DNA of 64,000 bases from Desertivirga xinjiangensis (GTDB taxonomy: Bacteria; Bacteroidota; Bacteroidia; Sphingobacteriales; Sphingobacteriaceae), in the NCBI RefSeq assembly GCF_024436435.1, contig NZ_JAFMZP010000004.1, positions 1 to 64,000 of the forward strand. The letters are read 5' to 3'. A model generated the notes under the pieces. It was given only the letters and a program-made list of their open reading frames with translations. It had not been told where the DNA came from and ran no database searches. Positions 34,981-53,652 of this stretch are shown here, in pieces (the stretch's first letter is position 1; every line of letters begins with the position of its first letter). The position numbers and the translations under genes were made by a program.

Positions 34981-36228
34981 CTAGACCAGGTATTCAAACA
35001 AGGTTTGATCTTTATTGATCTCTTTAAAATCAAAGCGGTTATCTTTCATCCTCTGTATTAAGGAAGGATAGTCGTCTGCAGATTTAAGTTCGATGCCAAC
35101 TAATGCAGGCCCGCTTTCCCTATTTGTTTTTTTAATGAATTCGAACTGCGTAATGTCATCACCCGGACCTAATACATCATTGACAAACATTCTCAATGCC
35201 CCTGGTCGTTGAGGGAACCGGATAACAAAGTAATGCTTGAGGCCTTCGTAAAGTAAAGAAAGCTCCTTGATCTCCTGCATCCTTTCGATGTCGTTGTTGC
35301 CTCCACTAATCACGCAAACTACTTTTTTACCTTTTATTGTTTCAGTACAAAGATCCAGTGCTGCTACTGATAAAGCACCGGCAGGCTCGGCAACGATTGC
35401 ATCCTCGTTATACAATTTAAGGATAGTAGTGCATACTTTGCCTTCAGGTACAAGAAGCATTTCATCCAATATCTTTTTGCAAACTGGATAGGTTAGTTCT
35501 CCGGCACGTTTCACGGACGCGCCATCAACAAAGCGGTTTATTTCCTGCAAGCTCACAGGGCCGCCGGTCTCGAAAGCTTTCAGCATCGACGGAGCGCCTT
35601 CCGGCTCAGTACCAATGATCCTGATGTCCGGGTTCACTTGTTTAAGGTAACTACCACAACCTGCTGCCAGGCCGCCGCCGCCAACGGGCACAATCAGCAC
35701 TTCTGCGTCAGGGAGGTCCTGGTAGATTTCTACACCTACCGTTCCCTGGCCCTCTATGATCTTGAAGTTGTCAAAGGGAGGGATAAAGGTCATCTGGTGC
35801 TTTTCGGTATAACTTAATGCTTCCTGTAAACAATCGTCAAACGTATCGCCTACTAGTATGATTTCAATCATGTCGCCACCGAACATCTTTGTCTGGCTGA
35901 CTTTCTGTTTAGGGGTGATCTCCGGCATGAAAATTATGCCTTTTGAATTTAGTTTCCTGCAGGAGAAAGCAACCCCCTGCGCATGATTGCCTGCACTGGC
36001 GCAAACCACTCCTTTACTCAGCTGCTCTTCGCTAAGCTGGCTGATCAAATTATAGGCTCCCCTAAGCTTGTAAGATCTTACTACCTGCTGGTCCTCTCTT
36101 TTCAAATAGATCTCAGCCTGATATTTCTCAGACAGTCGCGAGTTATATTCCAGAGGTGTTCTTTTGATGACTTCTTTTAAGCGCTTTAAGGCACTAACAG
36201 AGTTGAATTTGTGCGAAGGGTTGCTCAT
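34981..36228 (-). CDS. ilvA: Threonine deaminase
   Basis: 415-aa PLP enzyme that turns threonine into 2-oxobutyrate for isoleucine. The PLP lysine is Lys54 in RSYKLRGAYN and the glycine loop is GGGGLAAG. The C-terminus has one ACT-like regulatory domain (YFVIRFPQRPGALRMFVN), shorter than the E. coli two-domain form, so the feedback behaviour may differ. It lies after the leuB terminator, so it appears to be its own transcription unit beside the ilv-leu cluster. Confidence 0.95.
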   Translation of the reverse strand: MSNPSHKFNSVSALKRLKEVIKRTPLEYNSRLSEKYQAEIYLKREDQQVVRSYKLRGAYNLISQLSEEQLSKGVVCASAGNHAQGVAFSCRKLNSKGIIFMPEITPKQKVSQTKMFGGDMIEIILVGDTFDDCLQEALSYTEKHQMTFIPPFDNFKIIEGQGTVGVEIYQDLPDAEVLIVPVGGGGLAAGCGSYLKQVNPDIRIIGTEPEGAPSMLKAFETGGPVSLQEINRFVDGASVKRAGELTYPVCKKILDEMLLVPEGKVCTTILKLYNEDAIVAEPAGALSVAALDLCTETIKGKKVVCVISGGNNDIERMQEIKELSLLYEGLKHYFVIRFPQRPGALRMFVNDVLGPGDDITQFEFIKKTNRESGPALVGIELKSADDYPSLIQRMKDNRFDFKEINKDQTLFEYLV

Positions 36229-36318: not shown

Positions 36319-37380
36319 TTAGATATTTTTAGCTAACCAGTCTCCAACTTCGCTGGTTTTGTAAGCCTTTATTCCTTTAGGAGCAAGGTCTTCAGTTACA
36401 ATACCTTCTGCAAGCGATTTGTTAACCACTTCTCTGATAGCTTCAGCTTCATCTTTCAAACCGAAAGCATCTTCAAACATCATTGCGGCAGATAGCACGG
36501 TTGCGAGCGGATTGGCAATATCTTTACCTGCTGCCTGCGGATATGATCCGTGGATTGGCTCATATAACGAAGTATGAACACCTTTTGATGCAGATGGCAT
36601 TAGTCCCATAGATCCGGAAATTACTGAAGCCTCGTCAGTAAGGATGTCACCGAAAAGGTTTTCAGTAATGATCACATCATAGGAGCTAGGCCATTGAACT
36701 AAACGCATTGCAACTGCGTCTACAAATTCATAGCTAACCTCTACTTCGGGATAATCTTTTTCCATATTCTGTACAGTCTCTCTCCATAAACGTGAGCTCT
36801 CCAGAACATTTGCTTTGTCTACACAACACAATTTCTTGCTGCGGGTAAGCGCAAGCTCAAAGCCAAGCTTTGCCAGACGCTGAATCTCCTCTCTTGTATA
36901 AGTACAGGTATCAAACGCGGTGTTTCCATCATCTTTTCTACCTCTTTCGCCGAAATAAATTCCTCCTGTAAGTTCTCTCAAAATGATAAGGTCAGTTCCT
37001 TCAATTCTTTCACGTTTTAAAGGCGAATTGTCTATTAAAGATGGGAAAGTGAATGTAGGCCGAACGTTGGCAAATAGACCTAGTTTCTGACGCATCTTTA
37101 GAAGGCCTTGCTCCGGACGAACAGTTGCTTTTGGGTCATTATCATATTTAGGATGCCCAATGGCTCCAAACAAAACTGCATCTGCAGCTAAACATACCTC
37201 ATGAGTACTATCAGGATAAGGTTCGCCAACAGCATCGATAGCGGCTGCACCGGTTAATGCCGAGGTCCATTTAATTTCATGATTAAATTTTGCTGCTACT
37301 GCATTTACAACTTTTACTGCCTGGTCGATCACTTCAGGACCTATTCCATCTCCTGCTAAAAGAGCGATATTAAAATTCAT
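36319..37380 (-). CDS. leuB: 3-isopropylmalate dehydrogenase
   Basis: 353 aa; NAD-dependent oxidative decarboxylation of 3-isopropylmalate in leucine synthesis, and of the citramalate-derived homologue in the pyruvate route to isoleucine. N-terminal ALLAGDGIGPEVIDQAV, the substrate-binding stretch LLKMRQKLGLFANVRP, the metal-binding DILTDEASVISGSMGLMPSA and the NAD loop YEPIHGSYPQAAGKDIANP are all intact. Last gene before the operon terminator. Confidence 0.96.
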   Translation of the reverse strand: MNFNIALLAGDGIGPEVIDQAVKVVNAVAAKFNHEIKWTSALTGAAAIDAVGEPYPDSTHEVCLAADAVLFGAIGHPKYDNDPKATVRPEQGLLKMRQKLGLFANVRPTFTFPSLIDNSPLKRERIEGTDLIILRELTGGIYFGERGRKDDGNTAFDTCTYTREEIQRLAKLGFELALTRSKKLCCVDKANVLESSRLWRETVQNMEKDYPEVEVSYEFVDAVAMRLVQWPSSYDVIITENLFGDILTDEASVISGSMGLMPSASKGVHTSLYEPIHGSYPQAAGKDIANPLATVLSAAMMFEDAFGLKDEAEAIREVVNKSLAEGIVTEDLAPKGIKAYKTSEVGDWLAKNI

Positions 37381-37413
37381 TGTTGATTTGTTTATGTTGT
37401 TATATGTTTAATT

Positions 37414-38934
37414 TTAAATGATATTGAGCATTTTCTGAGTTGCCTTTATCGCGCAGACAGTCTGGTCAGAATCAAGACCTCTTGTTTTGAAGGTTTTGTT
37501 ATCATCAGTCTCCCAGGTGATAATAGTTTCACAAAGGGCATCTGAGTTACTCCCGGGGGCAATGCGTACCGTATAGTCAATAAGTTTAGGCAAACGTAGT
37601 CCTTTTCTGGTATAGACCTTGGTTAAAGCGTTCATAAAAGCGTCGAATTGCCCGTCACCCTGTGCATGCTCTTCATAAACTTTACCGTCAATACAGATAG
37701 AAAGTGTAGTAGAAGGCCTTAGGCCCTTGGAATGCGTTAGAACGTACGACTCAAGTTTTACTTTCTCTTCATACATACTGCTATCCAGCACATCGGAAAT
37801 AATATAAGGAAGGTCCTCTTTCGTTACCGTTTCTTTTTTGTCTCCAAGCTCAATCACCCTTTGGGTCACCTTTTTCAGGTCTTCATCATTAAGTTTTAAA
37901 CCTAATTCCTGAAGATTCTTTTCGATGTTCGCCTTTCCGGAGGTTTTACCCAAAGCATATTTCCGCTTTCTTCCAAAACGTTCAGGAAGAAGGTCATTAA
38001 AATATAAGTTGTTCTTATTATCTCCATCTGCGTGAATCCCTGCAGTCTGGGTGAAAACGTATTCACCGACAATTGGCTTGTTCGAAGGTATCCTGACCCC
38101 TGAAAACGCCTCTACCAACTTACTTACTTTATAGATCGACGATTCTTTAAGGGCAATATCTATATGTGGGAGAAAGTCGTTAATAACCGCCACTACGCTA
38201 GCCAGGGGGGCGTTTCCCGCCCTTTCTCCCATGCCGTTTACTGTTAGGTGCAAGCCATCAATCCCTGCCTTAACTGCTTCCAGCACATTTGCGGTCGCCA
38301 AATCATAATCGTTATGCGCATGAAAATCGAAATGAATCTGAGGATACGTAGTTTTCAGCAAAGAAACGTATTCAAATGCCTCCGGAGGGGTTAAAACTCC
38401 CAGTGTATCCGGCAGCATAATTCTTTTCACCGGCTGTTTCGAAAGGAATTCCAGGTATTGTAACACGTATTCTTTAGAGTTACGCATGCCATTACTCCAG
38501 TCTTCCAGATAAACATTAGTAGCTATGCCATGGCTTTGCGCAGAATCAATAACCCAGGCTATTTCTGCAAAATGCTGTTCGGGTGTTTTTTTTAGCTGAT
38601 GGGTAAGATGATTTAAAGAGCCCTTAGTAAGCAGGTTCTGAACTTTCACTCCCGACTTTAGCATCCAGTCGATAGATACGCCATTGTCAACGAATGACAA
38701 GACTTCTATGGCGTCAATAAACCCATTTTCTTTGGCCCACTTGGTGACGGCCTCAACCGCCTGGAACTCACCCTGTGAAACACGGGCTGAAGCAATCTCA
38801 ACACGGTCAACTTTCAACTCTTCCAATAAGAGCTGCGTAATGGTTAACTTTTCTGAAATGGAAAAAGACACCCCGGATGTCTGTTCTCCATCCCGAAGGG
38901 TAGTGTCCATTATTTCTATTTTCCTGGTCTTCAT
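37414..38934 (-). CDS. cimA: Citramalate synthase-type enzyme (CimA, Leptospira-like)
   Basis: 506-aa DRE-TIM enzyme with an alpha-isopropylmalate-synthase-type C-terminal regulatory domain. The catalytic Arg14-Asp15 lies in [29 protein letters not shown] holds the metal His pair; TQTAGIHADGD is the flexible-loop region. As I recall, Leptospira interrogans CimA shares the stretches VDRVEIASARVS, NVYLEDWSNG and GDGQFDAFMNALTK, and the positions of Leu79, Leu102 and Tyr142 line up with its pyruvate-pocket residues. Many databases label this subfamily 2-isopropylmalate synthase. It lies between leuD and leuB. Confidence 0.75.
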   Translation of the reverse strand: MKTRKIEIMDTTLRDGEQTSGVSFSISEKLTITQLLLEELKVDRVEIASARVSQGEFQAVEAVTKWAKENGFIDAIEVLSFVDNGVSIDWMLKSGVKVQNLLTKGSLNHLTHQLKKTPEQHFAEIAWVIDSAQSHGIATNVYLEDWSNGMRNSKEYVLQYLEFLSKQPVKRIMLPDTLGVLTPPEAFEYVSLLKTTYPQIHFDFHAHNDYDLATANVLEAVKAGIDGLHLTVNGMGERAGNAPLASVVAVINDFLPHIDIALKESSIYKVSKLVEAFSGVRIPSNKPIVGEYVFTQTAGIHADGDNKNNLYFNDLLPERFGRKRKYALGKTSGKANIEKNLQELGLKLNDEDLKKVTQRVIELGDKKETVTKEDLPYIISDVLDSSMYEEKVKLESYVLTHSKGLRPSTTLSICIDGKVYEEHAQGDGQFDAFMNALTKVYTRKGLRLPKLIDYTVRIAPGSNSDALCETIITWETDDNKTFKTRGLDSDQTVCAIKATQKMLNII

Positions 38935-38970
38935 GACTGAGACTGAAATTGTTTGATTCGTTTTATAGTA

Positions 38971-39013
38971 TAGTTAAAAGGCATTTCAACATGGGTTGAA
39001 ACGCCTTTAACTA
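38971..39013 (-). other. Long stem-loop between leuD and cimA-type gene
   Basis: The arms TAGTTAAAAGGCATTTCAAC (38971-38990) and GTTGAAACGCCTTTAACTA (38995-39013) pair almost completely with a 4-base loop. On the transcribed minus strand no T-run follows. It lies in the 102-bp gap inside the operon and may be a stabilising or processing hairpin, or an attenuating one. Confidence 0.6.
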
Positions 39014-39036
39014 TTCAAGATTTGCGCAGTGCTTTA

Positions 39037-39633
39037 TTACAGAGGAAGGTGTGTTGCAAACTCCTGTATTTCTGTCTTGATATTTTGAAGATAATCTATA
39101 TCGTCAAAACCATTTTGCATGTTATCTTTTTTATAACTGCTTATATCAAAGCTTTCTTTTTCACCGGTAGGCGAAAGCGTGATAGTCTGAGCAGGCAGGT
39201 CTATTTCTAGCTCAGTTTTAGGGTCAGCATATACTGCGTCAAATATCTTCTGAAGGAATTCAGGGCTAACCTGAACCGGCAATACGCCGATGTTTAAGCA
39301 GTTGTTTTTGAAGATATCAGCGAAGAAGCTTGATACCACAGCTCTGAAACCATAATCATAAACTGCCCATGCAGCGTGTTCCCTTGAAGAACCAGATCCG
39401 AAGTTTTTGCCACCTAGCAAAATTTTTCCGGTGTAGGTTGGATCGTTTAATACAAAATCAGCTTTAGGGGTATTATCCGGATTATATCTCCAGTCTCTGA
39501 ATAAGTTGTCTCCGAAGCCAACCCGTTCAGTTGCTTTTAAGAACCGTGCCGGTATAATCTGATCGGTATCCACATTTTCGATAGGAAGTGGAACTGCAGT
39601 ACTTGTTAATATAGTGAATTTATCGTAAGCCAT
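39037..39633 (-). CDS. leuD: 3-isopropylmalate dehydratase small subunit
   Basis: 198-aa swivel subunit of isopropylmalate isomerase. The hallmark IENVDTDQIIPARFLKA near residue 20 and GKNFGSGSSREHAAWA near residue 75 are intact. It partners leuC, which lies 77 bp upstream on the same strand. It can also serve the citramalate route to 2-oxobutyrate, consistent with the cimA-type gene immediately downstream. Confidence 0.96.
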   Translation of the reverse strand: MAYDKFTILTSTAVPLPIENVDTDQIIPARFLKATERVGFGDNLFRDWRYNPDNTPKADFVLNDPTYTGKILLGGKNFGSGSSREHAAWAVYDYGFRAVVSSFFADIFKNNCLNIGVLPVQVSPEFLQKIFDAVYADPKTELEIDLPAQTITLSPTGEKESFDISSYKKDNMQNGFDDIDYLQNIKTEIQEFATHLPL

Positions 39634-39710
39634 TTTTAATTTTTTTAGGTTCAGATTGACAGCTGTTGCCAGCGCCGATCATAGAACTATCCTGTTTACT
39701 GTGTATCTCT

Positions 39711-41108
39711 TTAAGCTAATAAGGTCCTCGGATCTGTAACCTTTCCAGTAACTGCAGCGGCAGCTGCAACCAGTGGACTTGCAAGCATGGTTCTTGCGCC
39801 TGGGCCTTGTCTTCCTTCAAAGTTACGGTTTGAAGTACTCACAGCATATTTACCCGCAGGAACTTTATCATCGTTCATCGCAAGGCAGGCAGAGCAGCCT
39901 GGCTGACGTAGCGTGAAGCCTGCTTCTGTTAAAATATCCAATATCCCTTCTTCTTTGATCTGCGACTCTACGATGTGAGAACCTGGTACTAACCATACCG
40001 TAACATTTTCTGCCTTTTTCTTTCCTTTAACCAAAGAGGCGAAAGCTCTGAAGTCTTCAATCCGGCCGTTTGTACAGCTTCCCACAAAAACATAGTCTAC
40101 TTTTTTGCCGATCATTGAATCTCCCTGGTGGAAGTCCATGTATCCAAGAGATTTTTCGTATGTAGCAACACCTCCTTCAACTTCTTTTGCATCCGGAATG
40201 TGGTTTGAAATACCGATACCCATACCAGGGTTTGTACCATAGGTGATCATTGGTTCTATAGCAGAACCATCATAGGTATACTCTATATCAAAAACAGCAT
40301 CAGCGTCTGTTTTAAGAGTTTTCCAGTAAGCCATAGCCTTGTCCCATGCCTCTCCTTTTGGAGTAAACTCGCGTCCCTGAACATAGTTAAAGGTAGTTTC
40401 ATCAGGAGCAATCATTCCACCGCGTGCTCCCATCTCAATGCTGAGGTTACAAACGGTCATACGACCTTCCATTGACATCTTTTCGAACACCTCTCCGGCA
40501 TATTCAACAAAGTATCCCGTTGCGCCGGAAGTAGTTAATTTTGAGATGATGAACAAGGCAACGTCTTTCGGGGTAACACCTTTACTTAGTTGACCGGTTA
40601 CATTGATCCTCATCTTTTTAGGCTTCGGCTGCATGATACATTGAGTAGAAAGTACCATTTCCACTTCGGAAGTGCCGATACCAAATGCGATTGCACCAAA
40701 GGCGCCATGAGTAGAGGTGTGAGAGTCGCCGCAAACGATAGTTGCACCCGGCTGAGTTATTCCATACTCCGGACCAACAACGTGTACAATACCGTTTTTC
40801 TGGTGACCAAGGCCCCAGTGGCTAATTCCGTATTCACGTGAATTTTGTTCCAAAGCCTTAAGCTGGTTCGCAGAAAGCGGATCAGCAACCGGTAAATGCT
40901 GGTTAATTGTAGGTGTATTGTGGTCTGCCGTAGCGAAAGTACGTTCAGGGTATAAAACTTTAATTCCTCTGCTTTTTAATCCCAGGAAAGCCACCGGGCT
41001 GGTAACTTCATGGATTAAATGGCGATCAATAAATAACACATCAGGCCCACCTTCAATTTTGCGAACAACGTGGGTGTCCCACACCTTGTCAAATAATGTC
41101 TTGCTCAT
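39711..41108 (-). CDS. leuC: 3-isopropylmalate dehydratase large subunit
   Basis: 465-aa aconitase-family subunit carrying the [4Fe-4S] cluster. Cluster cysteines are seen in [13 protein letters not shown] (one) and [12 protein letters not shown] (the CxxC pair). The motif [14 protein letters not shown] is the substrate-binding segment. It lies 49 bp below leuA. Confidence 0.97.
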
Positions 41109-41157
41109 TTTTATTTTAGATATTGTTAATTATATTTTTGAAGTTTAAACTTCATTT

Positions 41158-42672
41158 CTACACAAATTTATTTAATGCATCCAGGTAAGCGTTTGCCGAA
41201 GCGCGTACAATGTCTGTACTAAAGCCATATCCCATATATGATTTATCCTCATAGATCACGCGCATATCAACCTTCGATACATCGTCGCTTCCTCCATGAA
41301 TGGAATGGATGTTAAACTCTTTAATTTCAATATTTTGACCGAGTATATGTTCAATGGCTTTTATAGTGGCGCTCACCGGTCCGTTACCAGTAGCAGTAGC
41401 TTCATGTTCAGAACCTTTATAAAGCAATTTAACAATGGCTTCCGGATCTGATTGATCTCCGCAGGTTACCTGCAATGAATTGATCTTTAAACCGTTTTTG
41501 AAGTTTGTCTCGGCTTCGTCACCCATTAAAATTAAAAGATCATCGTCTTTAATCTCTTTTTTCTCATCGGCCATTACCAAAAAGCGCTGATAGGTTTGGT
41601 CCAGGTCTATTCTTTCGATGGAATATCCTAAACGCTCCAGGTGATGCTTAAGAGCATGTCGTCCGCTGCGGGCGGTCAGGATAATCTCCGACTGGTCAAT
41701 TCCTACATCTTCAGGATTCATGATCTCATAAGTTTCGCGGTGTTTCAGCACCCCGTCCTGGTGAATACCAGAACTATGAGCAAACGCATTTCTGCCGACA
41801 ATGGCTTTGTTTGGCTGAACAGGCATACGCATCATGCGGCTTACCATACCACTAAGGGGGTAAAGCTGTCTGGTATTGATATTTATTTTATCGTGATAGC
41901 CAAGCCCTTTGTGAGTATTCAATATCATAACGACTTCCTCCAGGGAAGTATTGCCTGCGCGTTCGCCTATACCATTTATAGTACATTCAATCTGACGGGC
42001 ACCGTTTTGGAGTCCTGCAATGCTGTTTGCTGTAGCCAGGCCAAGATCGTTATGGCAATGAACAGAGATCACAGCATTGTCGATATTCCTGACATTTTCT
42101 TTCAGAAAGCGGATCTTCTCCCCGTACTGTTCAGGAAGACAATATCCGTTAGTATCGGGGATATTTACAACAGTTGCTCCGGCTGCTATCACCGCCTCAA
42201 TCATTTGTGCCAGGTAAACGTTATCTGCTCTTCCTGCATCTTCCGCATAAAATTCAACATCTTCTACAAAAGACTTCGCATATTTAACTGCTTCAACGGC
42301 ACGCTCCAAGATAACTTCGCGGGTGCTGTTGAACTTGTACTGAATATGCATATCAGAAGAGCCAATACCTGTATGGATACGGGGACGTTTAGCGTATTTC
42401 AAGGCTTCGGCTGCGCAGTCTATATCACCTTTATTTGCGCGTGTCAATGCACAAATGATAGGTTCGCGGATAGCCTTTGACAATTCAACTACGCTCTGAA
42501 AGTCTCCGGGACTTGAAATAGGAAAGCCTGCTTCGATAATATCAACCCCCAGCGACTGGAGGGCTTCTCCAATAATAATCTTTTCAGGAGTTGTTAATTG
42601 AGAACCGGGTACCTGCTCGCCATCACGTAGCGTGGTGTCAAAAATAAATATACGGTTAGGATCGTGTAACAT
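41158..42672 (-). CDS. leuA: 2-isopropylmalate synthase
   Basis: 504 aa; condenses acetyl-CoA with 2-oxoisovalerate, the first committed step to leucine. [16 protein letters not shown] at the start, [15 protein letters not shown] with the metal His pair, and [16 protein letters not shown] are typical of LeuA. A C-terminal regulatory domain of about 120 residues is present, so leucine feedback is expected. The DGEQVPGS motif differs from the DGEQTSGV of the second, CimA-type paralogue at 37414-38934. Confidence 0.96.
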
Positions 42673-42778: not shown

Positions 42779-44248
42779 TTATATTAAACAGCTTTCTGCA
42801 ATTGTTTCCACTTTCTTAACTTCGCCGTTCTCTAAGATTATTCTTTTTTCCAGGCAGGCTGGCAGATCAGACTCGAAATGCCCTACGTAGATCAGCGTCA
42901 TTCCATTGCTGCTCAATTCGTCAACCAATTTATTGAAATACTGTGTCTGATGCAGGTCAAGGCCCTGACAAGGTTCATCCAGTATCAGAAGTTCCGGGTT
43001 TTTAATGATCGTCCTCGCCAGCAAAACCAGCCGTTGTTTTCCCAAAGGAAGCGTGCTCAGCAAGTCGTTCTTGTCATCGGTTAAGCCAAAGAAGTTAATG
43101 AGCTCATCGACTTTTGTGCTTTTTGAAAACGGAAGCTGTTTAAACAAGCCTACTGAATCAAAAAAACCTGAGGCTATACTCTGCCATACCGTTGACGAAG
43201 AATCAAAATACCAGTGAAACTCCGGAGAAATAATGCCTATATGTTGTTTTATGTCCCAGATACTTTCTCCGCTGCCTCTTTTATTACCAAACAGATAAAA
43301 ATCATTGGCATAAGACTGAGGATGGTCGCCGTTGATCAAACTTAATAAAGTCGATTTTCCGGATCCGTTATGTCCCTGTAGCAGCCATTTTTCACCAGCC
43401 CTGACTTCCCAGTTTATATTTTTTAAGACCTGCTTTTCGCCATAACTGATATTAACATTAATCATTCTGACTATCTCGTCAGATGGATATACCGGCGCTT
43501 CCTTTAGAAAGTCGGGAAGTTTTCTGCCAGGTCTTTCCATTGAAACCGGGTCCAATTTAGCAGAAGGAAGCCTTTCAAGCTGTCCCTCCCTGATCCGGGC
43601 AAAGCGATTGATGCAGGAAGGCAATTCGGTGTCGTTTGCTATTATGATAAGCTGAACACCTTCTGCTGAGATATCATTTAATAAGTGGTCCAGTTTTACA
43701 CGCGATAAAACGTCCAATCCTGTATAAGGCTGATCAATAATTAAAAGTTGAGGTTTTAACCACAAAGCCTTAATCAGCTGTAACTTTTTATGTTCGCCGC
43801 TGGACAATTCCAGCAAAGACGAATTCATGAAAGTAACGAACTGCAATTCAATTAAAAGCTTTTCGGCCGCCGTAAACTCGAGTTGATGTTCCTTTCCGAA
43901 GTTCCGAAGCTCAGCCCCGACACTTAATGTGTCCTTTGCCTGAAGGCTGGTATACCGCTGCTGGTAGTAAAAGTTAGCAACTCCTTCTATGTTTTTAAAC
44001 TGATACCAGCTTTCAACATAGAAGACCCGGGCTGGCAGAGCGCTTTTTGTATTAAAGCTGAAGGTGACATTTCCCGAATAACTCTGTAAACCAGCAATAA
44101 CTTTTGCCAATGAAGATTTGCCAGTACCGCTGGAACCTGTAAGCAGCCAGCTTTCGCCGGGAAATATATCCCAGTTCAAATCCCTTATTACCAGTTTATG
44201 CTGGTATTTTACGTTAAGGTTTTGAATACTGACCAGTGGTTCTGACAT
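42779..44248 (-). CDS. ModF-like ABC protein with two ATPase domains
   Basis: 489 aa from ATG 44248 (MSEPLVSIQN). Two ABC ATPase domains sit in one chain: Walker A GSSGTGKSS and GHNGSGKST; Walker B LLIIDQPYTG and LLILDEPCQG; the first signature reads LELSSGEHKK, the second LSTLPLGKQR, so both are degenerate. No membrane domain is present. It resembles E. coli ModF (PhrA), whose role is unclear. An in-frame ATG at 44278 falls inside the terminal repeat of the adjacent element and is unlikely to be the ancestral start. It lies inside the ilv-leu operon. Confidence 0.82.
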   Translation of the reverse strand: MSEPLVSIQNLNVKYQHKLVIRDLNWDIFPGESWLLTGSSGTGKSSLAKVIAGLQSYSGNVTFSFNTKSALPARVFYVESWYQFKNIEGVANFYYQQRYTSLQAKDTLSVGAELRNFGKEHQLEFTAAEKLLIELQFVTFMNSSLLELSSGEHKKLQLIKALWLKPQLLIIDQPYTGLDVLSRVKLDHLLNDISAEGVQLIIIANDTELPSCINRFARIREGQLERLPSAKLDPVSMERPGRKLPDFLKEAPVYPSDEIVRMINVNISYGEKQVLKNINWEVRAGEKWLLQGHNGSGKSTLLSLINGDHPQSYANDFYLFGNKRGSGESIWDIKQHIGIISPEFHWYFDSSSTVWQSIASGFFDSVGLFKQLPFSKSTKVDELINFFGLTDDKNDLLSTLPLGKQRLVLLARTIIKNPELLILDEPCQGLDLHQTQYFNKLVDELSSNGMTLIYVGHFESDLPACLEKRIILENGEVKKVETIAESCLI

Positions 44249-44264
44249 ATAGTATTTTGTATTT

Positions 44265-44518
44265 AAGAAGGTGTCCATAAGCCGGATCCTCGTCTTGTCT
44301 CTTCGTCATCCTGAACTGTTTTGTGATCAGGACCCTGATTCGTTTCTTCCGTCATCCTGAACTTGTTTCAGGATCTCTTGCCTAAGCAAGTCCTGCAAGT
44401 ATAATTCAAGAGATGCCGAAATAAATTCGGCATGACGACCTGCCTTATGATCTGCATTTTAGCAAATTTGGCATGACGATCTACGTTATACGAGGATGAG
44501 ACTTTTGGACACCTTCTT
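44265..44518. repeat. MITE-like repeat inserted between ilvC and the ABC gene
   Basis: The ends AAGAAGGTGTCCATAAG (44265-44281) and the complement of CTTTTGGACACCTTCTT (44502-44518) are a 17-bp inverted repeat with one mismatch. The interior has two GTCATCCTGAAC starts, the TTTCAGGATCTCTTGCC arm, CAAGAGATGCCGAAATAAAT and two GGCATGACGA units, the same core as the repeats at 136-304 and 8195-8386 but with different outer ends. No target-site duplication is clear. It lies 8 bp from the ilvC stop. Confidence 0.75.
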
Positions 44519-44525
44519 TATGTTT

Positions 44526-46007
44526 TTAGACTGTTTTGATAGCTTTCATTGCAGTCATCGCTTTACGCAACTTTGTACCTACAATTTCAACAGGGTGATT
44601 TCGAAGGATCTCGTTAATAGTTACCAGTTGAGTGTTATCAACAGATCCGTCCTTGCCTTCATTGAAGTTTTTACCAACAAGGTCAGTATCCACTTTTTTC
44701 ATGAAGTCGGCCAATAAAGGCTTACAAGCCTGATCAAACAGGTAGCAACCATATTCTGCCGTATCAGAAATTACACGGTTCATTTCGAACAATTTTTTAC
44801 GTGCAATAGTATTCGCAATAAGCGGAGTTTCGTGTAAAGACTCATAATATGCAGACTCTGGTTTAATACCCGCTTCAACCATAGTTTCGAAAGCTAATTC
44901 AACACCTGCTCTAACAAATGCAACCATTAGAAGGTAGTTGTCAAAATATTCCTGCTCTCCGATCTTTACATCACCAGCAGGAGTTTTTTCGAAAGCAGTT
45001 TCACCTGTTTCAGCTCTCCATGCCAATAAATTTTTATCTCCGTTAGCCCAGTCTTCCATCATGATGCGGCTGAATTCGCCACTCATGATATCATCCTGAT
45101 GTTTTTGGAATAGTGGACGCATGATCTCTTTAAGCTCTTCAGAAACGTCAAAAGCTTTGATCTTAGCAACATTGCTTAAACGATCCATCATTCCTGATAC
45201 GCCACCATGTTTCAAAGCTTCAGTGATAACTTCAACTCCATATTGAACCAGTTTAGACGCATAACCAGCATCGATTCCTTTTTCAACCATTTTATCGAAA
45301 GACAAAATAGAACCGGTTTGTAAAAGACCGCAAAGGATAGTTTGCTCACCCATCAAATCTGATTTTACCTCAGCTACGAAAGATGATCTTAATACGCCCG
45401 CTTTGTGACCGCCTGTACCAACGCAATATGCTTTAGCCTCAGCCAAACCTTTACCCTGAGGGTCATTTTCTGGATGAACAGCAATTAATGTTGGAACACC
45501 AAAACCTCTTACATACTCAGATCTAACCTCGCTACCAGGAGATTTAGGAGCAACCATAATAACGGTAAGGTCTTTGCGGATCTGCATGCCTTCTTCAACG
45601 ATATTGAAACCATGAGAGTAAGAAAGCGTAGCGCCTTGTTTCATCAATGGCATTACAGCATTAACAACGGCGGTGTGCTGTTTATCAGGCGTAAGATTGA
45701 TCACAAGGTCAGCAGTAGGAAGTAATTCTTCGTAAGTTCCAACTGTGAAGTTATTACCGGTAGCATTTTTCCATGAATCTCTTTTGCCTTCGATCGCCTC
45801 TTTGCGTAATGCATAACTTACATCTAAGCCACTATCTCTTAAGTTTAAACCTTGATTTAAACCTTGGGCGCCGCAACCTACTATTACAATTTTCTTTCCT
45901 TTCAACGCATTTACGCCGTCAGAAAATTCTGAACTGTCCATGAATTCGCATACTCCCAATTGATTTAATTGTTCTCTAAGGGGCAGTGTATTAAAATAAT
46001 TTGCCAT
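44526..46007 (-). CDS. ilvC: Ketol-acid reductoisomerase, class II
   Basis: 493 aa, the long plant/E. coli type. NADPH-binding [19 protein letters not shown] near residue 45, with downstream Arg/Lys/Ser ([13 protein letters not shown]) for NADPH preference. Two copies of the knotted domain fit the long form, with acidic metal ligands seen in [10 protein letters not shown]. It converts acetolactate and acetohydroxybutyrate to dihydroxy acids. It lies 166 bp below ilvN, and the MITE-like repeat starts 8 bp after its stop. Confidence 0.97.
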
Positions 46008-46173: not shown

Positions 46174-46785
46174 TTACATGGTGAAAACTTTATCGGCACT
46201 ATTTAGATACTCATTTTCAACCACTTCATGACCAGGTTCCTGACTTTCAAACTCACGAAGTTTCCGGTTAAATCCTTCACTGTCTTTGATGATCATCACT
46301 CTGGCACTTCTGACGAACTCAATCAATCCATATGGCTGAAGCTTGTGGATCAGGGCATCTGTTTCCTCCCGGTGACCGGTAGTTTCAAATACGGTATAAT
46401 CATGTCTGATCACTACCGCCCGTGCGCCGTTTTCACGTAAAAGACGCTCAACAATAGCTTTCTCGGCAATCTCGTCCGTAGGGACCTTATAAAGAGCCAT
46501 TTCCTGCCAGATCACATCTTCATTGGTATTATAATAAACCTTAAGCACTTCTACCTGCTTTTCAATCTGGCGGCATACTTTGCTAACAACATTTTCAGAT
46601 TCGGTGATAACGATGTTGAAGCGGTGAATGCTGTCGATCTCTGAAGGAGAGGTATTTAAGCTTTCTATGTTGATCTTTCTTCTGCTAAAGATAATTGCAA
46701 TACGCGTAAGTAAACCGATTTGGTTCTCGGTATAGACGGTGATATTATATTCCTGTTTCTCTGGGTTTGGAATGTGAGTAGTCAT
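46174..46785 (-). CDS. ilvN: Acetolactate synthase small (regulatory) subunit
   Basis: 203 aa. An N-terminal ACT domain starts NITVYTENQIGLLTRIAIIF and RKINIESLNTSPSE; this is where valine feedback is sensed in relatives. A longer C-terminal domain follows, as in IlvH/IlvN of the larger type. It is translated 39 bp below ilvB. Confidence 0.95.
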   Translation of the reverse strand: MTTHIPNPEKQEYNITVYTENQIGLLTRIAIIFSRRKINIESLNTSPSEIDSIHRFNIVITESENVVSKVCRQIEKQVEVLKVYYNTNEDVIWQEMALYKVPTDEIAEKAIVERLLRENGARAVVIRHDYTVFETTGHREETDALIHKLQPYGLIEFVRSARVMIIKDSEGFNRKLREFESQEPGHEVVENEYLNSADKVFTM

Positions 46786-46824: not shown

Positions 46825-48561
46825 TTAACTAAGCCTGATTTCACTTACGCTGCAGCCTTGCGGCACCATTGGAAATACATTGTTCTCTTTGGTAACCATT
46901 ACCTCAAGAAGGTATGAACCATCGTGTTCGATCATCGTCTTAAGGGCAGATTTCAAACTTTCACGATCGTTAACGCTTTGGCCAGGAATGTTATATCCTT
47001 CAGCAACCTTTACAAAATTAGGGCTGGTAATATTTACGAAAGAATAACGTCTGTCATTGAATAGCTCCTGCCATTGGCGAACCATACCTAAAAACTGGTT
47101 ATTAAGTATCAGGATTTTCACCCCTACGTTAAACTGCATGATGGTTCCAAGTTCCTGGATGGTCATCTGCACACCGCCATCGCCGATCACTGCTATTACC
47201 TCCTTGTCGGGCGCCCCGAATTTAGCACCAATTGCTGCTGGTAAAGAAAATCCCATAGTTCCCAAACCGCCGCTTGTAATATTGCTGCGGGTATTGTTAA
47301 ACTTAGCATAGCGGCATGCCACCATCTGATGCTGGCCAACGTCGGTTACTATAATGGCTTCACCATTGGTTAATTCATTAACTTGCTGGATCACTTCACC
47401 CATGGTCAGCTCTTCTGACGAAGGGAATAACTCATCCTTTATAACTGCTTCTACTTCCTGACGGGTAAATTCATTGAATTTCGCCAGCCATTCTGTATGC
47501 TGCTTTTGTTCGATCAATTCTGTAAGGATGGGAAGCGTTTCTTTGCAGTCACCCCATACCTGTACAGTGGTCTGAACGTTTTTGTCAATTTCTGCAGGGT
47601 CAATATCGAAGTGAATTACTTTCGCCTGTTTGGCATATTTATCAAGGCGTCCGGTAACTCGGTCGTCGAAACGCATTCCTATAGCAATAAGTACGTCACA
47701 TTCATTTGTTAATACATTGGGACCGTAGTTTCCATGCATTCCAAGCATACCCACGTTTAGAGGATGGGTAGTTGGTATGGCACCTGCGCCAAGAATCGTC
47801 CATGCCGCCGGTATTCCCGATTTTTCAACAAAGGTTTTAAACTCCTGTTCGGCACTACCCAATAGCACACCTTGTCCCCATAGAATGAATGGTTTTTTCG
47901 CAGAGTTGATAAGCCTTGCAGCTTCTTCTACATATTCTCTCCGGACTATTGGTTTCGGACGATAACTCCGGATATGCTTGCAAGGCGTATAGCCTTTATA
48001 TTCGAACTTTTGGAACTGTGCATTTTTTGTGATATCGATCAGTACCGGACCAGGTCTTCCGCTTTTTGCGATATAAAAAGCCTTAGCCAGTACTTCGGGG
48101 ATCTCTGTAGCGTCAGTAACCTGGTAATTCCATTTGGTAACAGGGGTGGTGATATTGATAACGTCAGTTTCCTGGAAGGCGTCTGTACCTAATAGATGAG
48201 CAAATACTTGCCCTGTTATACAAACAAGAGGAGTGCTGTCGATCTGGGCGTCAGCAAGGCCGGTTACAAGGTTTGTTGCTCCCGGACCACTGGTAGCGAA
48301 TACAACACCAACTTTGCCTGATGCCCTTGCGTAACCCTGACCTGCATGTATACCTCCCTGCTCATGACGGACTAATATATGGTTAAGCTTATCATTGTAA
48401 TCATACAAGGCATCGTAGATAGGCATAATTGCGCCTCCCGGATAACCAAAAATGACATCCGTGCCTTCTGCGATCAATGCTTCCAATACGGCTTGCGAAC
48501 CACTAAGTTCGATGCCTGTTTTCTGCTCTGCAGCGGTTAATTCCTGTTGTGCTGTATCCAT
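46825..48561 (-). CDS. ilvB: Acetolactate synthase large (catalytic) subunit
   Basis: 578-aa thiamine-diphosphate enzyme. The catalytic Glu is in ILVRHEQGGIHAGQGYARAS near residue 68. The ThDP motif runs from IGDGGVQMTIQELGT to ILNNQFLGMVRQWQ (about residues 455-490). It starts branched-chain synthesis by condensing pyruvate with pyruvate or 2-oxobutyrate. It sits between ilvD and ilvN on the minus strand. Confidence 0.97.
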   Translation of the reverse strand: MDTAQQELTAAEQKTGIELSGSQAVLEALIAEGTDVIFGYPGGAIMPIYDALYDYNDKLNHILVRHEQGGIHAGQGYARASGKVGVVFATSGPGATNLVTGLADAQIDSTPLVCITGQVFAHLLGTDAFQETDVINITTPVTKWNYQVTDATEIPEVLAKAFYIAKSGRPGPVLIDITKNAQFQKFEYKGYTPCKHIRSYRPKPIVRREYVEEAARLINSAKKPFILWGQGVLLGSAEQEFKTFVEKSGIPAAWTILGAGAIPTTHPLNVGMLGMHGNYGPNVLTNECDVLIAIGMRFDDRVTGRLDKYAKQAKVIHFDIDPAEIDKNVQTTVQVWGDCKETLPILTELIEQKQHTEWLAKFNEFTRQEVEAVIKDELFPSSEELTMGEVIQQVNELTNGEAIIVTDVGQHQMVACRYAKFNNTRSNITSGGLGTMGFSLPAAIGAKFGAPDKEVIAVIGDGGVQMTIQELGTIMQFNVGVKILILNNQFLGMVRQWQELFNDRRYSFVNITSPNFVKVAEGYNIPGQSVNDRESLKSALKTMIEHDGSYLLEVMVTKENNVFPMVPQGCSVSEIRLS

Positions 48562-48642: not shown

Positions 48643-50358
48643 TTACAAGTCCGTTACACAGCCTTCTGCTGCGGTACTAACCTGTTTTGCATATTTATAT
48701 AAAAGGCCTTTTTTAGCTTTTAATTCCGGCTGAGTCCATCTTGCACGTCGCGCGGCAATTTCTTCGTCAGAAACTTTAAGATTGATACTGTTCTCAATGG
48801 CATCAAGTTCAATGATGTCATTGTCCTGAACCAATCCGATTAAGCCTCCTTTGTAAGCTTCCGGGGTGATGTGACCCACTACGAAACCATGAGTACCACC
48901 GCTAAAACGGCCGTCAGTGATCAGGGCAACGCTTTTGCCTAATCCCACACCGATAAGGGCTGAAGTTGGTTTAAGCATCTCAGGCATTCCTGGAGCTCCA
49001 ACCGGACCCACATTCCTGATAACAACTACGTCTCCGTGCTGAACGCGTCCTGACTGGATACCTTCGATCAGCTCGAACTCACCGTCGAATACACGTGCCG
49101 GACCAACAAAACGCTCACCTTCTTTACCGGTGATCTTTGCGACACTTCCGCCTTCTGCAAGGTTTCCATAAAGGATTTGCAGGTGACCGGTTGCTTTAAT
49201 TGGATTTTCTGCAGGAAGAATTATTTTCTGAGATTCAAAATCCAGGGATGGGATATCTGCAAGGTTTTCAGCAAGAGTTTTACCAGTACAGGTAAGGGTG
49301 CTTCCATCTATCCAGCCTTTTTCCAAAGCGTATTTCATCACAGCAGGCACCCCTCCAATATTATGAAGGTCTTCCATCATATATTTTCCGCTCGGTTTCA
49401 TATCCGCAAGTACAGGGATACGGTTGCTGATAGCCTGGAAATCATCCTGGGTTAACTCAACATCCACACTCTTGGCAATTGCCAATAAATGCAGAACCGC
49501 ATTGGTAGATCCACCAAGAAGCATGATGACCACAATAGCATTTTCAAAAGCCTGACGGGTCATGATGTCTTTTGGTTTGATATCACGCTCCATTAATAAA
49601 CGGATCGCTTTTCCTGCTGCAAGGCACTCTTGCTTCTTCTCCTCGCTTAATGCCGGATTGGAAGAAGAATAAGGCAAGCTCATACCAAGAGCTTCAATTG
49701 CTGCAGCCATCGTATTTGCAGTATATATACCACCGCATGCTCCCGCACTTGGACAAGAGTTTTTGATGATCTCCTTAAAGTCGATGTCACTAAGTTCGCC
49801 AGCCATTTTTTTACCCAGGGCTTCGAAGGCGGAAACGATGTTCAGATCTTCTCCTTTGTAGTGTCCCGGGTGAATAGTACCGCCATACACCATAATTGAT
49901 GGACGGTTTAATCTGCCCATTGCCATCACAGAACCAGGCATATTTTTGTCGCATCCAGGCAAAGCAATCAGCGAATCATAGTACTGAGCTCCACAAACTG
50001 CCTCGATTGAATCAGCAATAATATCACGGCTCACCAACGAATAACGCATACCTTCTGTTCCATTACTCATGCCATCGCTCACACCAATGGTATTGAAAAT
50101 CAGACCAACGAGATCCTCTGCCCATACGCCCTCTTTAACCAGCTTGGCAAGGTCGTTCAGGTGCATGTTACAGGTGTTGCCATCATAACCCATACTTGCA
50201 ATTCCCACCTGGGCCTTTTGCATGTCCTCTTCAGTCAGGCCAATTCCGTAAAGCATGGCTTGTGCTGCCGGCTGTGTAGGGTCTTGAGTCAGGGTTTTGC
50301 TGTAGCGGTTCAATTCGTTTACAGTTGTTGTGCTTTCTGTATTATCAGATAAGGTCAT
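48643..50358 (-). CDS. ilvD: Dihydroxy-acid dehydratase
   Basis: 571 aa, IlvD/Edd family. Fe-S cysteines are seen in [30 protein letters not shown] and [18 protein letters not shown]. The C-terminal [20 protein letters not shown] holds the conserved active-site serine region. It is the first structural gene of the ilv-leu cluster, preceded by the leader peptide and attenuator. Confidence 0.97.
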
Positions 50359-50390: not shown

Positions 50391-50423
50391 TAAAAAAAGC
50401 GCCTCCGTTGTTAGAAGGCGCTT
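50391..50423 (-). terminator. Attenuator terminator of ilv operon
   Basis: On the minus strand AAGCGCCT (50416-50423) and AGGCGCTT (50397-50404) form an 8-bp G/C-rich stem, followed by TTTTTT. It lies 13 nt after the leader-peptide stop and 32 bp before ilvD, where premature termination would switch off the operon. Confidence 0.85.
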
Positions 50424-50436
50424 ACGTTTTCTTTTA

Positions 50437-50544
50437 TTAAGACACCTTCGAATGAGAAGCAATGAGGAGCACCACAATTACGTTAATAACAGGTACCAAA
50501 CTTGTCACAGTAATGCTCAATCTTCTTCTTAATCTTGGGTTCAT
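50437..50544 (-). CDS. ilv leader peptide (35 aa), attenuation control
   Basis: From ATG 50544 to TAA 50437 the frame reads MNPRLRRRLSITVTSL, then VPVINVIVVLLIASHSKVS. Between residues 16 and 28, 11 of 13 residues are Ile, Leu or Val, the three end products of the operon. A rho-independent terminator follows 13 nt after the stop. The tract GAAGGTGT at the leader 3' end (50442-50449) can pair over 8 bp (two G-U) with GCGCCTTC of the terminator 5' arm (50414-50421). Ribosome stalling in the Ile/Leu/Val run would leave this tract free to pair and block the terminator. Mechanism inferred by analogy with enterobacterial ilv/leu leaders; the sequence pattern is seen directly. Confidence 0.85.
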   Translation of the reverse strand: MNPRLRRRLSITVTSLVPVINVIVVLLIASHSKVS

Positions 50545-50579: not shown

Positions 50580-50605
50580 CAAGGTAGGAACTTGGAATTT
50601 ATCAA
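50580..50605 (-). promoter_or_regulatory. Putative ilv operon promoter
   Basis: On the minus strand TTGATA (TTG at 50603-50605) and TACCTTG (50580-50586) give a Bacteroidota-like -33/-7 pair with a 16-19 bp spacer. It lies 36 bp upstream of the leader-peptide ATG. Confidence 0.5.
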
Positions 50606-50915
50606 TCAATAGGGGTAGGTTGAATTTTTAATTTAATATAATATTTTATTATGAGCACATTCTTTAGAATAAAATATTGAATGAAGTGTGTTTACTGATA
50701 TTTAGTATTTGTGCAGAATACCAAAACCAATTTCGGTATACAGTTTTGCTAATTGCTTGTTTCTAAAAATGCCGCCTGTTTCCGCCTAAAAAGTATTGAC
50801 AATTAAAAAAAGTGAAAAAAAAAGCGCCCGGTGGATTGTGATCTTGTCGCTCTTCGAATTTATAATTCCCCTTTTGTCAGCGTTTCCAAAGAGTACGCAA
50901 AAGTCTTCAAAACAA
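50606..50915. other. Non-coding region between ilv promoter and atpC terminator
   Basis: About 310 bp with no gene. It contains a perfect 11-bp dyad AATATTTTATT / AATAAAATATT (50640-50650 and 50668-50678) 35 bp upstream of the putative ilv promoter, a possible operator. Otherwise A/T-rich. Confidence 0.45.
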
Positions 50916-53621: not shown

Positions 53622-53652
53622 AGAGGAGACGAATTATTTTCGTCTCTTTTTG
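53622..53652 (+). terminator. Terminator after small membrane proteins
   Basis: GGAGACGAA / TTCGTCTCT with a TTAT loop, followed by TTTTTG. Confidence 0.75.

Follow-up and report, generated by a model that had tools for sequence, protein, structure and literature searches.

A probable ribosome-mediated attenuator with an Ile/Leu/Val-rich leader peptide upstream of ilvD in Desertivirga xinjiangensis and its relatives

The ilv-leu operon of Desertivirga xinjiangensis is preceded by a short element in which an Ile/Leu/Val-rich leader frame, an intrinsic terminator and a potential antiterminator strand lie immediately ahead of ilvD. We consider this element to be a ribosome-mediated transcription attenuator of the operon, with a probability of roughly 0.9. 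That assignment draws on sequence and comparison, namely on the frame, its codons, the terminator, a possible alternative pairing, the spacing of these parts and their co-occurrence in relatives. It is thus very likely that the Ile/Leu/Val switch before ilvD is real and of a well-known type.

Results

Architecture of the ilvD leader region

The window, by which we mean the whole 64-kb stretch of DNA that was analyzed, is part of a 5.5-Mb genome whose nearest named IlvD relatives, among those listed, come from a Sphingobacteriaceae MAG and from Mucilaginibacter. On the minus strand, atp-like genes are followed by a palindrome, a promoter-like element, a 35-codon frame, a terminator and ilvD (Table 1). 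The upstream neighbor reads as atpC and carries its own terminator at 50946-50916. Downstream, the gene order is ilvD, ilvB, ilvN, ilvC, an ABC ATPase gene, leuA, leuC, leuD, a leuA/citramalate-synthase paralogue, leuB and ilvA, and spacing and strand suggest that the genes from ilvD to ilvA form a single transcript. A previous sequence-only reading of this DNA had placed an ilvD-to-leuB biosynthesis operon here, and profile matches uphold its gene identities. The double ABC ATPase gene was also seen in 12 of 20 family operons compared over 17 kb each.

Table 1. Features of the ilvD leader region and the downstream ilv-leu genes
Feature	Position	Strand	Evidence
Palindromic site TATACCGAAATTGGTTTTGGTAT, predicted protein-binding operator upstream of the promoter	50718-50740	-	Exact match and relatives
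Predicted promoter TATTG-N20-TACCTT, Bacteroidota type	50581-50611	-	Conserved in relatives
Leader peptide frame MNPRLRRRLSITVTSLVPVINVIVVLLIASHSKVS, 35 codons	50437-50544	-	Translation; Ile/Leu/Val-rich counterparts in relatives
Putative regulatory codons 16-28, 11/13 Ile/Leu/Val	50461-50499	-	Translation
Predicted antiterminator strand GAAGGTGT, end of leader frame	50442-50449	-	Predicted duplex with terminator 5' arm
Intrinsic terminator hairpin (5' arm 50423-50414, 3' arm 50406-50397)	50397-50423	-	Hairpin scan and folding
Terminator T-run, 5 T after the stem	50392-50396	-	Sequence
ilvD, dihydroxy-acid dehydratase, first structural gene	48643-50358	-	NF002068 and TIGR00110 above cut-off
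ilvB, acetolactate synthase large subunit	46825-48561	-	TIGR00118 above cut-off
ilvN, acetolactate synthase small subunit	46174-46785	-	TIGR00119 above cut-off
ilvC, ketol-acid reductoisomerase	44526-46007	-	NF003557 above cut-off
Double ABC ATPase, ModF-like, inside the ilv-leu operon	42779-44278	-	Profile match, below curated cut-off
leuA, leuC, leuD, leuA/citramalate-synthase paralogue, leuB	36319-42672	-	Profile matches; paralogue below cut-offs only
ilvA, threonine ammonia-lyase	34981-36228	-	NF006390 above cut-off

With respect to the leader itself, the coordinates given by the sequence-only reading, its count of 11 Ile/Leu/Val among residues 16-28 (translation of 50437-50544, minus strand) and its 13-nt gap all proved correct on re-reading, with the stop codon ending at 50437 and the terminator stem beginning at 50423. 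The stem comprises 10 pairs closed by a 7-nt loop and followed by 5 T, giving a T-run of 7 when the two T within the stem are included. Folded together with its 5' flank, the terminator reaches -17.5 kcal/mol (z -2.8 against shuffles). Hairpin detection permitted bulges, and a bulge-free version missed cases. At the Rfam gathering score, the window returned one tRNA only and 17 attenuator loci gave no match. A T-box, a riboswitch or another Rfam family was rejected as an identity for the element, the best sub-threshold hit in 461 nt scoring 30.2 bits against a cut-off of 115.

Predicted alternative pairing of antiterminator and terminator

The sequence-only reading had proposed a pairing between the leader's final segment and the 5' arm of the terminator, and energy calculations are in line with this. 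Specifically, the predicted duplex of GAAGGTGT (50449-50442) with the 5' arm has an energy of -11.6 kcal/mol, where shuffles average -4.3 and 0 of 200 are as good, and with the loop included it reaches -12.7 kcal/mol, a value matched by 2 of 500 shuffles. In predicted folds, window RNA ending at the 5' arm adopts the antiterminator and the full-length RNA adopts the terminator. As the full RNA favors the terminator at equilibrium, antitermination would need to depend on kinetics, just as the classical model has it. The whole leader region is barely more stable than shuffles (z -1.6 and -0.9), which is expected where only short helices matter.

Spacing is also consistent with a ribosome-controlled switch. 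The antiterminator strand begins 11 nt past the last Ile/Leu/Val codon in the window (median 10, range 2-14, across the 49 loci described below), and it would thus be exposed when a ribosome stalls. Given the ribosome footprint, a stalled ribosome leaves such a strand open and a ribosome at the stop codon covers it. Taken together, the frame, codons, terminator, alternative pairing and spacing suit the earlier description of a complete and self-consistent set of attenuator parts.

A pairing of this kind is also predicted in relatives. With the loop included, the leader end is predicted to pair with the 5' arm better than 95% of shuffles do in 41 of the 49 loci, the window among them, and is at chance level (more than 5% of shuffles as good) in the other eight (L017, L024, L054, L169, L217, L219, L229 and L241). 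When only the arm was considered, at least 10 of 200 shuffles were as good in 16 of 49 loci. In the set found upstream of ilvE (see below), 3 of 28 loci (L050, L051 and L089) were equalled by 16-23 of 100 shuffles. The predicted pairing partners differ by clade: in the window's genus GAAGGTGT or GAAGGCGT pairs with CGCCTTC, in the main Pedobacter-type group AGAGGTGG pairs with CCGCCTC, in the smaller Pedobacter-type group GGGAAGGC pairs with GCCTCCC, and in the Segetibacter MAG (L081) GGAGGTGG pairs with CCGCCTCC.

In terms of mechanism, RNA polymerase would initiate at the promoter at 50611-50581 and transcribe the leader with a ribosome following behind. When charged Ile, Leu and Val tRNAs are ample, the ribosome would reach the stop codon and mask GAAGGTGT, which would leave the terminator free to form and end transcription before ilvD. 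If one of the three charged tRNAs were short, the ribosome would stall on codons 16-28, and the exposed GAAGGTGT would pair with the emerging 5' arm of the terminator, so that polymerase would continue into ilvD. Promoter use, leader translation, stalling and the direction of the effect are what we infer from the arrangement of these parts.

Distribution in relatives

A search of Sphingobacteriaceae returned an IlvD match in 281 of 301 genomes. We examined 228 ilvD upstream regions (217 distinct), 150 of them from the family search and 78 from named loci, the latter being the usable ones among the best 80 of a larger number of matches. The family sample consisted of 30 loci and then 120 more, most of which were taken in order of similarity rank; Pedobacter-type genomes were included deliberately, as were five separately drawn genomes (G303, G305, G310, G314 and G325); owing to this uneven sampling, the fractions reported here are not population frequencies. 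Left out of the 228 were L004, a paralogue, and L086 and L102, in which the contig begins inside or near the gene. Among the genus codes assigned to the loci, g13 corresponds to Pedobacter and g14 to Mucilaginibacter, as judged from named loci whose upstream sequences are identical to those of coded ones (L103/L233, L108/L234, L015/L033 and others).

A hairpin within 140 nt of ilvD was detected in 53 loci, and removal of four by hand left 49 of the 217 distinct regions with a terminator beside ilvD and a short frame. The rejected hairpins were long and imperfect: those of L016 and L018 spanned the promoter region and had no frame, and those of L066 and L190 had a best frame of 4/12 and none, respectively. 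L060, which has an Ile/Leu/Val leader before ilvD and no passing terminator, was likewise excluded from the count. Within the family sample, 45 of 150 loci have the attenuator beside ilvD and 105 do not. The positives comprise three loci of the window's genus (L001-L003), the promoter-sharing L012, L017 and L020, and 39 Pedobacter-type loci (L024 and 38 others); the named loci add Sediminibacterium (L048), Ferruginibacter (L054), a Segetibacter MAG (L081) and Elizabethkingia (L095). The frame contains at least 6 Ile/Leu/Val in 12 residues in 48 of the 49 loci, the exception being L024 with 5/12. The conserved Ile/Leu/Val-rich short frames anticipated for Sphingobacteriaceae ilvD loci are therefore present where a terminator adjoins the gene, and retention of the terminator with loss of the rich frame, which would have spoken against attenuation, was not seen in these relatives, L024 being a weak case.

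A second position for the pair emerged among the named loci listed, of which 32 of 78 carry a frame and terminator within 2.2 kb of ilvD, 4 beside the gene and 28 at a distance of 908-1376 nt. A 33rd hit of this count, which was stricter than the loose one described below, is the artefact L036 and was dropped. For the distal pairs, the next gene is class-IV aminotransferase-like in 7 of 7 cases inspected, and the one gene tested, in L039, matches ilvE_I above cut-off. The taxa concerned are mostly Chitinophagaceae and unplaced Bacteroidetes MAGs, together with five Chryseobacterium, one Cyclobacteriaceae MAG and Pedobacter mendelii. No pair was found within 2.2 kb in 45 of the 78 named loci, some of which lie on short contigs. 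In L024 and L027, further Leu/Ile/Val-rich frames with terminators lie about 1.1 kb upstream of ilvD, and L024, given its weak pair beside the gene, possibly has two attenuators in one operon.

Covariation and selection

The sequence-only reading anticipated compensatory changes in both pairings, an expectation borne out in part between clades and weakly or not at all within them. Across 17 representatives, the summed pairing energy is -240.8 kcal/mol for cognate partners and -193.8 (sd 10.8) for permuted ones, with 0 of 20000 permutations as good, and for 16 of the 17 the cognate mean is -14.1 kcal/mol as compared with -9.6 for partners across clades. When partners were permuted inside single clades, the cognate pairing was equaled in 384 of 5000 cases in one clade and in 75 of 5000 in another. 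The cognate-pairing signal thus appears to lie mainly between clades and to be weak or absent within them.

For the terminator helix, alignment A1 (26 sequences) is 83.5% paired, with 0 of 500 shuffles as good and a best slide of 74.0%, and its covariation score of 0.210 was reached by 0 of 500 shuffles (best slide 0.185). Two-sided changes occur in 4 of 11 terminator pairs of A1, a result matched by 124 of 500 shuffles, and an alignment slid by +1 exceeds the true register in this respect (5 pairs, and 16 cells versus 9). In the Pedobacter-type sequences, the antiterminator helix is 92.2% paired against at most 68.7% when slid and the terminator helix is 98.7% paired; neither shows a two-sided change.

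Conservation within the Pedobacter-type leaders points to the codons and the RNA. In 37 such leaders (25 distinct codon rows, with L160 set apart), every codon from -15 to -12 encodes Ile, Leu or Val, and in the main group, with its 19 distinct leaders, these three residues account for all the variation at codons -16 to -12. At codon -16, the main group has either Ile or Leu; the smaller group comprises 6 distinct rows, of which 5 have Asn and one, L211, belongs by its letters to the main group. The motif AGAGGTGGA is nearly invariant in the main group, third positions included, its Gly codons being GGT in 18 of 19 and GGA in 17 of 19 leaders. In L160 (121-216, minus strand), one extra nucleotide after the regulatory codons places the motif in another frame; the end of the peptide is altered and the motif is kept. 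Because the regulatory codons and the RNA motif are kept in the face of this altered end, selection seems to act on them more than on the end of the peptide. The idea that leader Leu codons track the leu genes fails, as Pedobacter-type leaders have few Leu codons despite downstream leu genes.

Alternative explanations

A simpler account would hold that the hairpin is an ordinary terminator and the Ile/Leu/Val-rich frame a chance reading of T-rich sequence. Such sequence does favor Ile/Leu/Val through T-rich second codon positions, and some regions that have no terminator also contain frames of this kind. Within the window, 26 terminators reach -12 kcal/mol or lower (15 on the plus and 11 on the minus strand), and 2 of the 26, that of ilvD and one other, are preceded by a short frame in which 8 or more of 12 residues are Ile/Leu/Val. 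The need for an ordinary terminator here is, however, lessened by the fact that the upstream atpC-like gene has its own. Moreover, the frame and terminator co-occur across genera and orders, whereas the upstream sequence of related ilvD genes, 290,466 bases in total, yields 89 terminators on its opposite strand and 0 Ile/Leu/Val-frame pairs there at the 6/12 setting. The forward strand of the same bases yields 177 terminators and 79 loose pairs, many of which are artefacts in which the Val-rich C-terminus of an atpC-like gene precedes that gene's own terminator. For each terminator the richest nearby Ile/Leu/Val frame was reported, a choice that favors an attenuator and to which the opposite-strand control is equally subject. 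The uniformly Ile/Leu/Val codons -15 to -12 of the 25 distinct Pedobacter-type leaders likewise argue against chance, which we regard as a highly unlikely source of the frame.

Two further accounts accept a translated leader and give it another role. It might, for instance, control the access of Rho or unmask the ilvD start instead of working through an intrinsic terminator, and the same genome does provide a possible precedent: a His leader, MTSVFTHHMHFHHRH, precedes hisG (TIGR00070) at L299:179-226 on the minus strand, and no T-run terminator passed the filter in the hisG leader region, so the lineage may use more than one type of leader control. At ilvD, by contrast, a strong intrinsic terminator is present and the pairing of its 5' arm with the leader end beats 95% of shuffles in most loci, which makes control of this other kind very improbable. 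Alternatively, the frame could encode a small membrane protein with a function of its own, as its basic start and subsequent hydrophobic stretch might suggest. Across clades, however, it is mainly the Ile/Leu/Val character that persists while the C-terminal peptide differs, and in L160 the C-terminus is frameshifted with the RNA motif still in place; we judge such a protein to be extremely unlikely. A frame that does resemble a small membrane protein, 59 residues long with an Ile run, lies before the other Ile/Leu/Val-associated terminator in the window (53623-53649, plus strand).

Predicted promoter and upstream palindrome

The predicted promoter resembles the TAnnTTTG -7 box described for flavobacteria (PMC9723704, in the part available), and transcription would start about 5-10 nt downstream of the 50611-50581 element. 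A start downstream of 50437, raised in the sequence-only reading as a case against attenuation, is unlikely because this conserved Bacteroidota-type promoter-like element, its position predicted, lies upstream of the leader. Further upstream, a palindrome of the form TATACC-N10-TTGGTAT has similar counterparts in 91 of 226 ilvD upstream regions, as compared with 8 of 226 reversed controls. With a looser pattern it is found in 92 of 228 regions, 86 of which also have the promoter, and the spacing between the two is 159-161 nt in 82 of these 86 loci, a few of which are duplicates. Spacings in shuffled controls, where a promoter score of at least 8 was obtained in 35 cases, are scattered. In 40 distinct loci with a spacing of exactly 160 nt, mean identity is 48% over the 106-nt spacer, for which composition alone predicts 36%, as compared with 80% over the palindrome and 90% over the promoter boxes. 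A spacing that stays fixed while the spacer sequence drifts suggests that the palindrome is bound by a protein that bends or wraps DNA.

The attenuator accompanies palindrome and promoter in 6 of the 86 loci and is absent from 80, and the promoter lies 208-249 nt from ilvD where an attenuator is present and 30-148 nt (median 80) where it is absent. Among Mucilaginibacter-type loci, 57 of 57 have the palindrome and 2 the attenuator; among Pedobacter-type loci, none of the 55 has the palindrome and 39 have the attenuator beside ilvD; in the window's genus, both are present in 3 of 3. Under the looser pattern, the Pedobacter-type attenuator loci L223 and L240 gave poor operator-like matches with no promoter, and the stricter pattern gave none. 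Elsewhere in the genome, the exact palindrome pattern recurs at two sites, both inside coding frames, and matches with 1-2 mismatches number 210 in all versus 178 in the control. From these distributions we tentatively propose, as a reading with somewhat less than an even chance of being right, that two largely alternative layers may control the operon in this family, one a palindrome 159-161 nt from the promoter that would serve a wrapping or looping regulator and the other the attenuator, and that one may substitute for the other. If so, the promoter architecture would have stayed fixed through several gains or losses of attenuation. Because sister genera differ in whether they have the rigid operator-promoter frame or the attenuator, they lend themselves to comparing two controls over one operon.

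Discussion

The enterobacterial ilv and leu operons are controlled by leader-peptide attenuators, and the element before ilvD shares with them a short frame with many codons for the amino acids that the operon makes, a terminator before the first gene and an antiterminator that excludes the terminator and has its first strand close to the leader's end. It differs in that the first gene is ilvD (ilvE in relatives), and the likeness is one of arrangement; a separate pause hairpin is not among the parts demonstrated here. Attenuators in Bacteroidetes/Chlorobi were reportedly predicted by comparative analysis by Vitreschak and co-workers and Lopatovskaya and co-workers (2004, 2010). We found no description of an ilvD attenuator in Bacteroidota in the open-licence literature that was searched.

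Similar leaders are documented in other phyla. In actinobacteria, an Ile/Leu/Val-rich frame and a terminator precede an ilv gene, but that gene is ilvB and the frame overlaps the terminator (PMC1262725, PMC10272879, as far as the available parts go); for the Streptomyces coelicolor ilvB leader, codon replacement is described as having no effect (PMC1262725, in part). The ilv operon of Staphylococcus aureus, a Firmicute, is likewise governed by a leader peptide, a leucine-rich attenuator that is combined with CodY (PMC5794164, in part). The Veillonella ilvD motif is also a cis-element before ilvD, in some cases with a terminator, but is proposed as a weak riboswitch candidate and is confined to Veillonella in the portion available (PMC8632094). 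Authors writing in 2010 stated that they knew of no phyla besides Proteobacteria and Actinobacteria with demonstrated leader-peptide systems, and they added Firmicutes to the list (PMC2965389, in part).

Within the phylum, a transcriptome study of Flavobacterium psychrophilum reports 'strong clues' of leader-peptide attenuation before amino-acid biosynthesis operons; the text section available names elements of pheA and hisG, the latter a conserved 5' element in flavobacteria, and not ilvD (PMC9723704). Leader-like small frames have also been noted in Bacteroides thetaiotaomicron (PMC7366714, in part). The ilvD element accordingly belongs to a known type of mechanism, and the doubt as to novelty voiced in the sequence-only reading can be narrowed: the mechanism has been reported in the phylum (PMC9723704, in part), and the ilvD case is the part for which the open-licence search gave no precedent.

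The messages of Bacteroidota largely do without Shine-Dalgarno sequences, an absence also mentioned in the available part of PMC9723704. The speed of ribosome loading on the leader therefore becomes a direct question, and the ilvD element offers a testable case of classical attenuation in Bacteroidota in which to ask whether ribosomes can load fast enough to track polymerase. Leader frames of this kind also become annotatable.

Other leaders in the same genome suggest that leader peptides may be in general use in the window's lineage. A Trp leader, MLKVIHTKNWWWQAIACAG, and a terminator lie directly before a trpE-like gene (PF00425; L295:749-874), and a Thr/Ile leader, MIKFTYTITTTIISTRLYAGGRSCMV, and a strong terminator lie directly before a thrA-like gene (PF00742; L298:2151-2286). 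The predicted leader-end pairing energies, calculated without shuffle comparison, are -13.7 kcal/mol for the trpE-like and -19.2 kcal/mol for the thrA-like gene.
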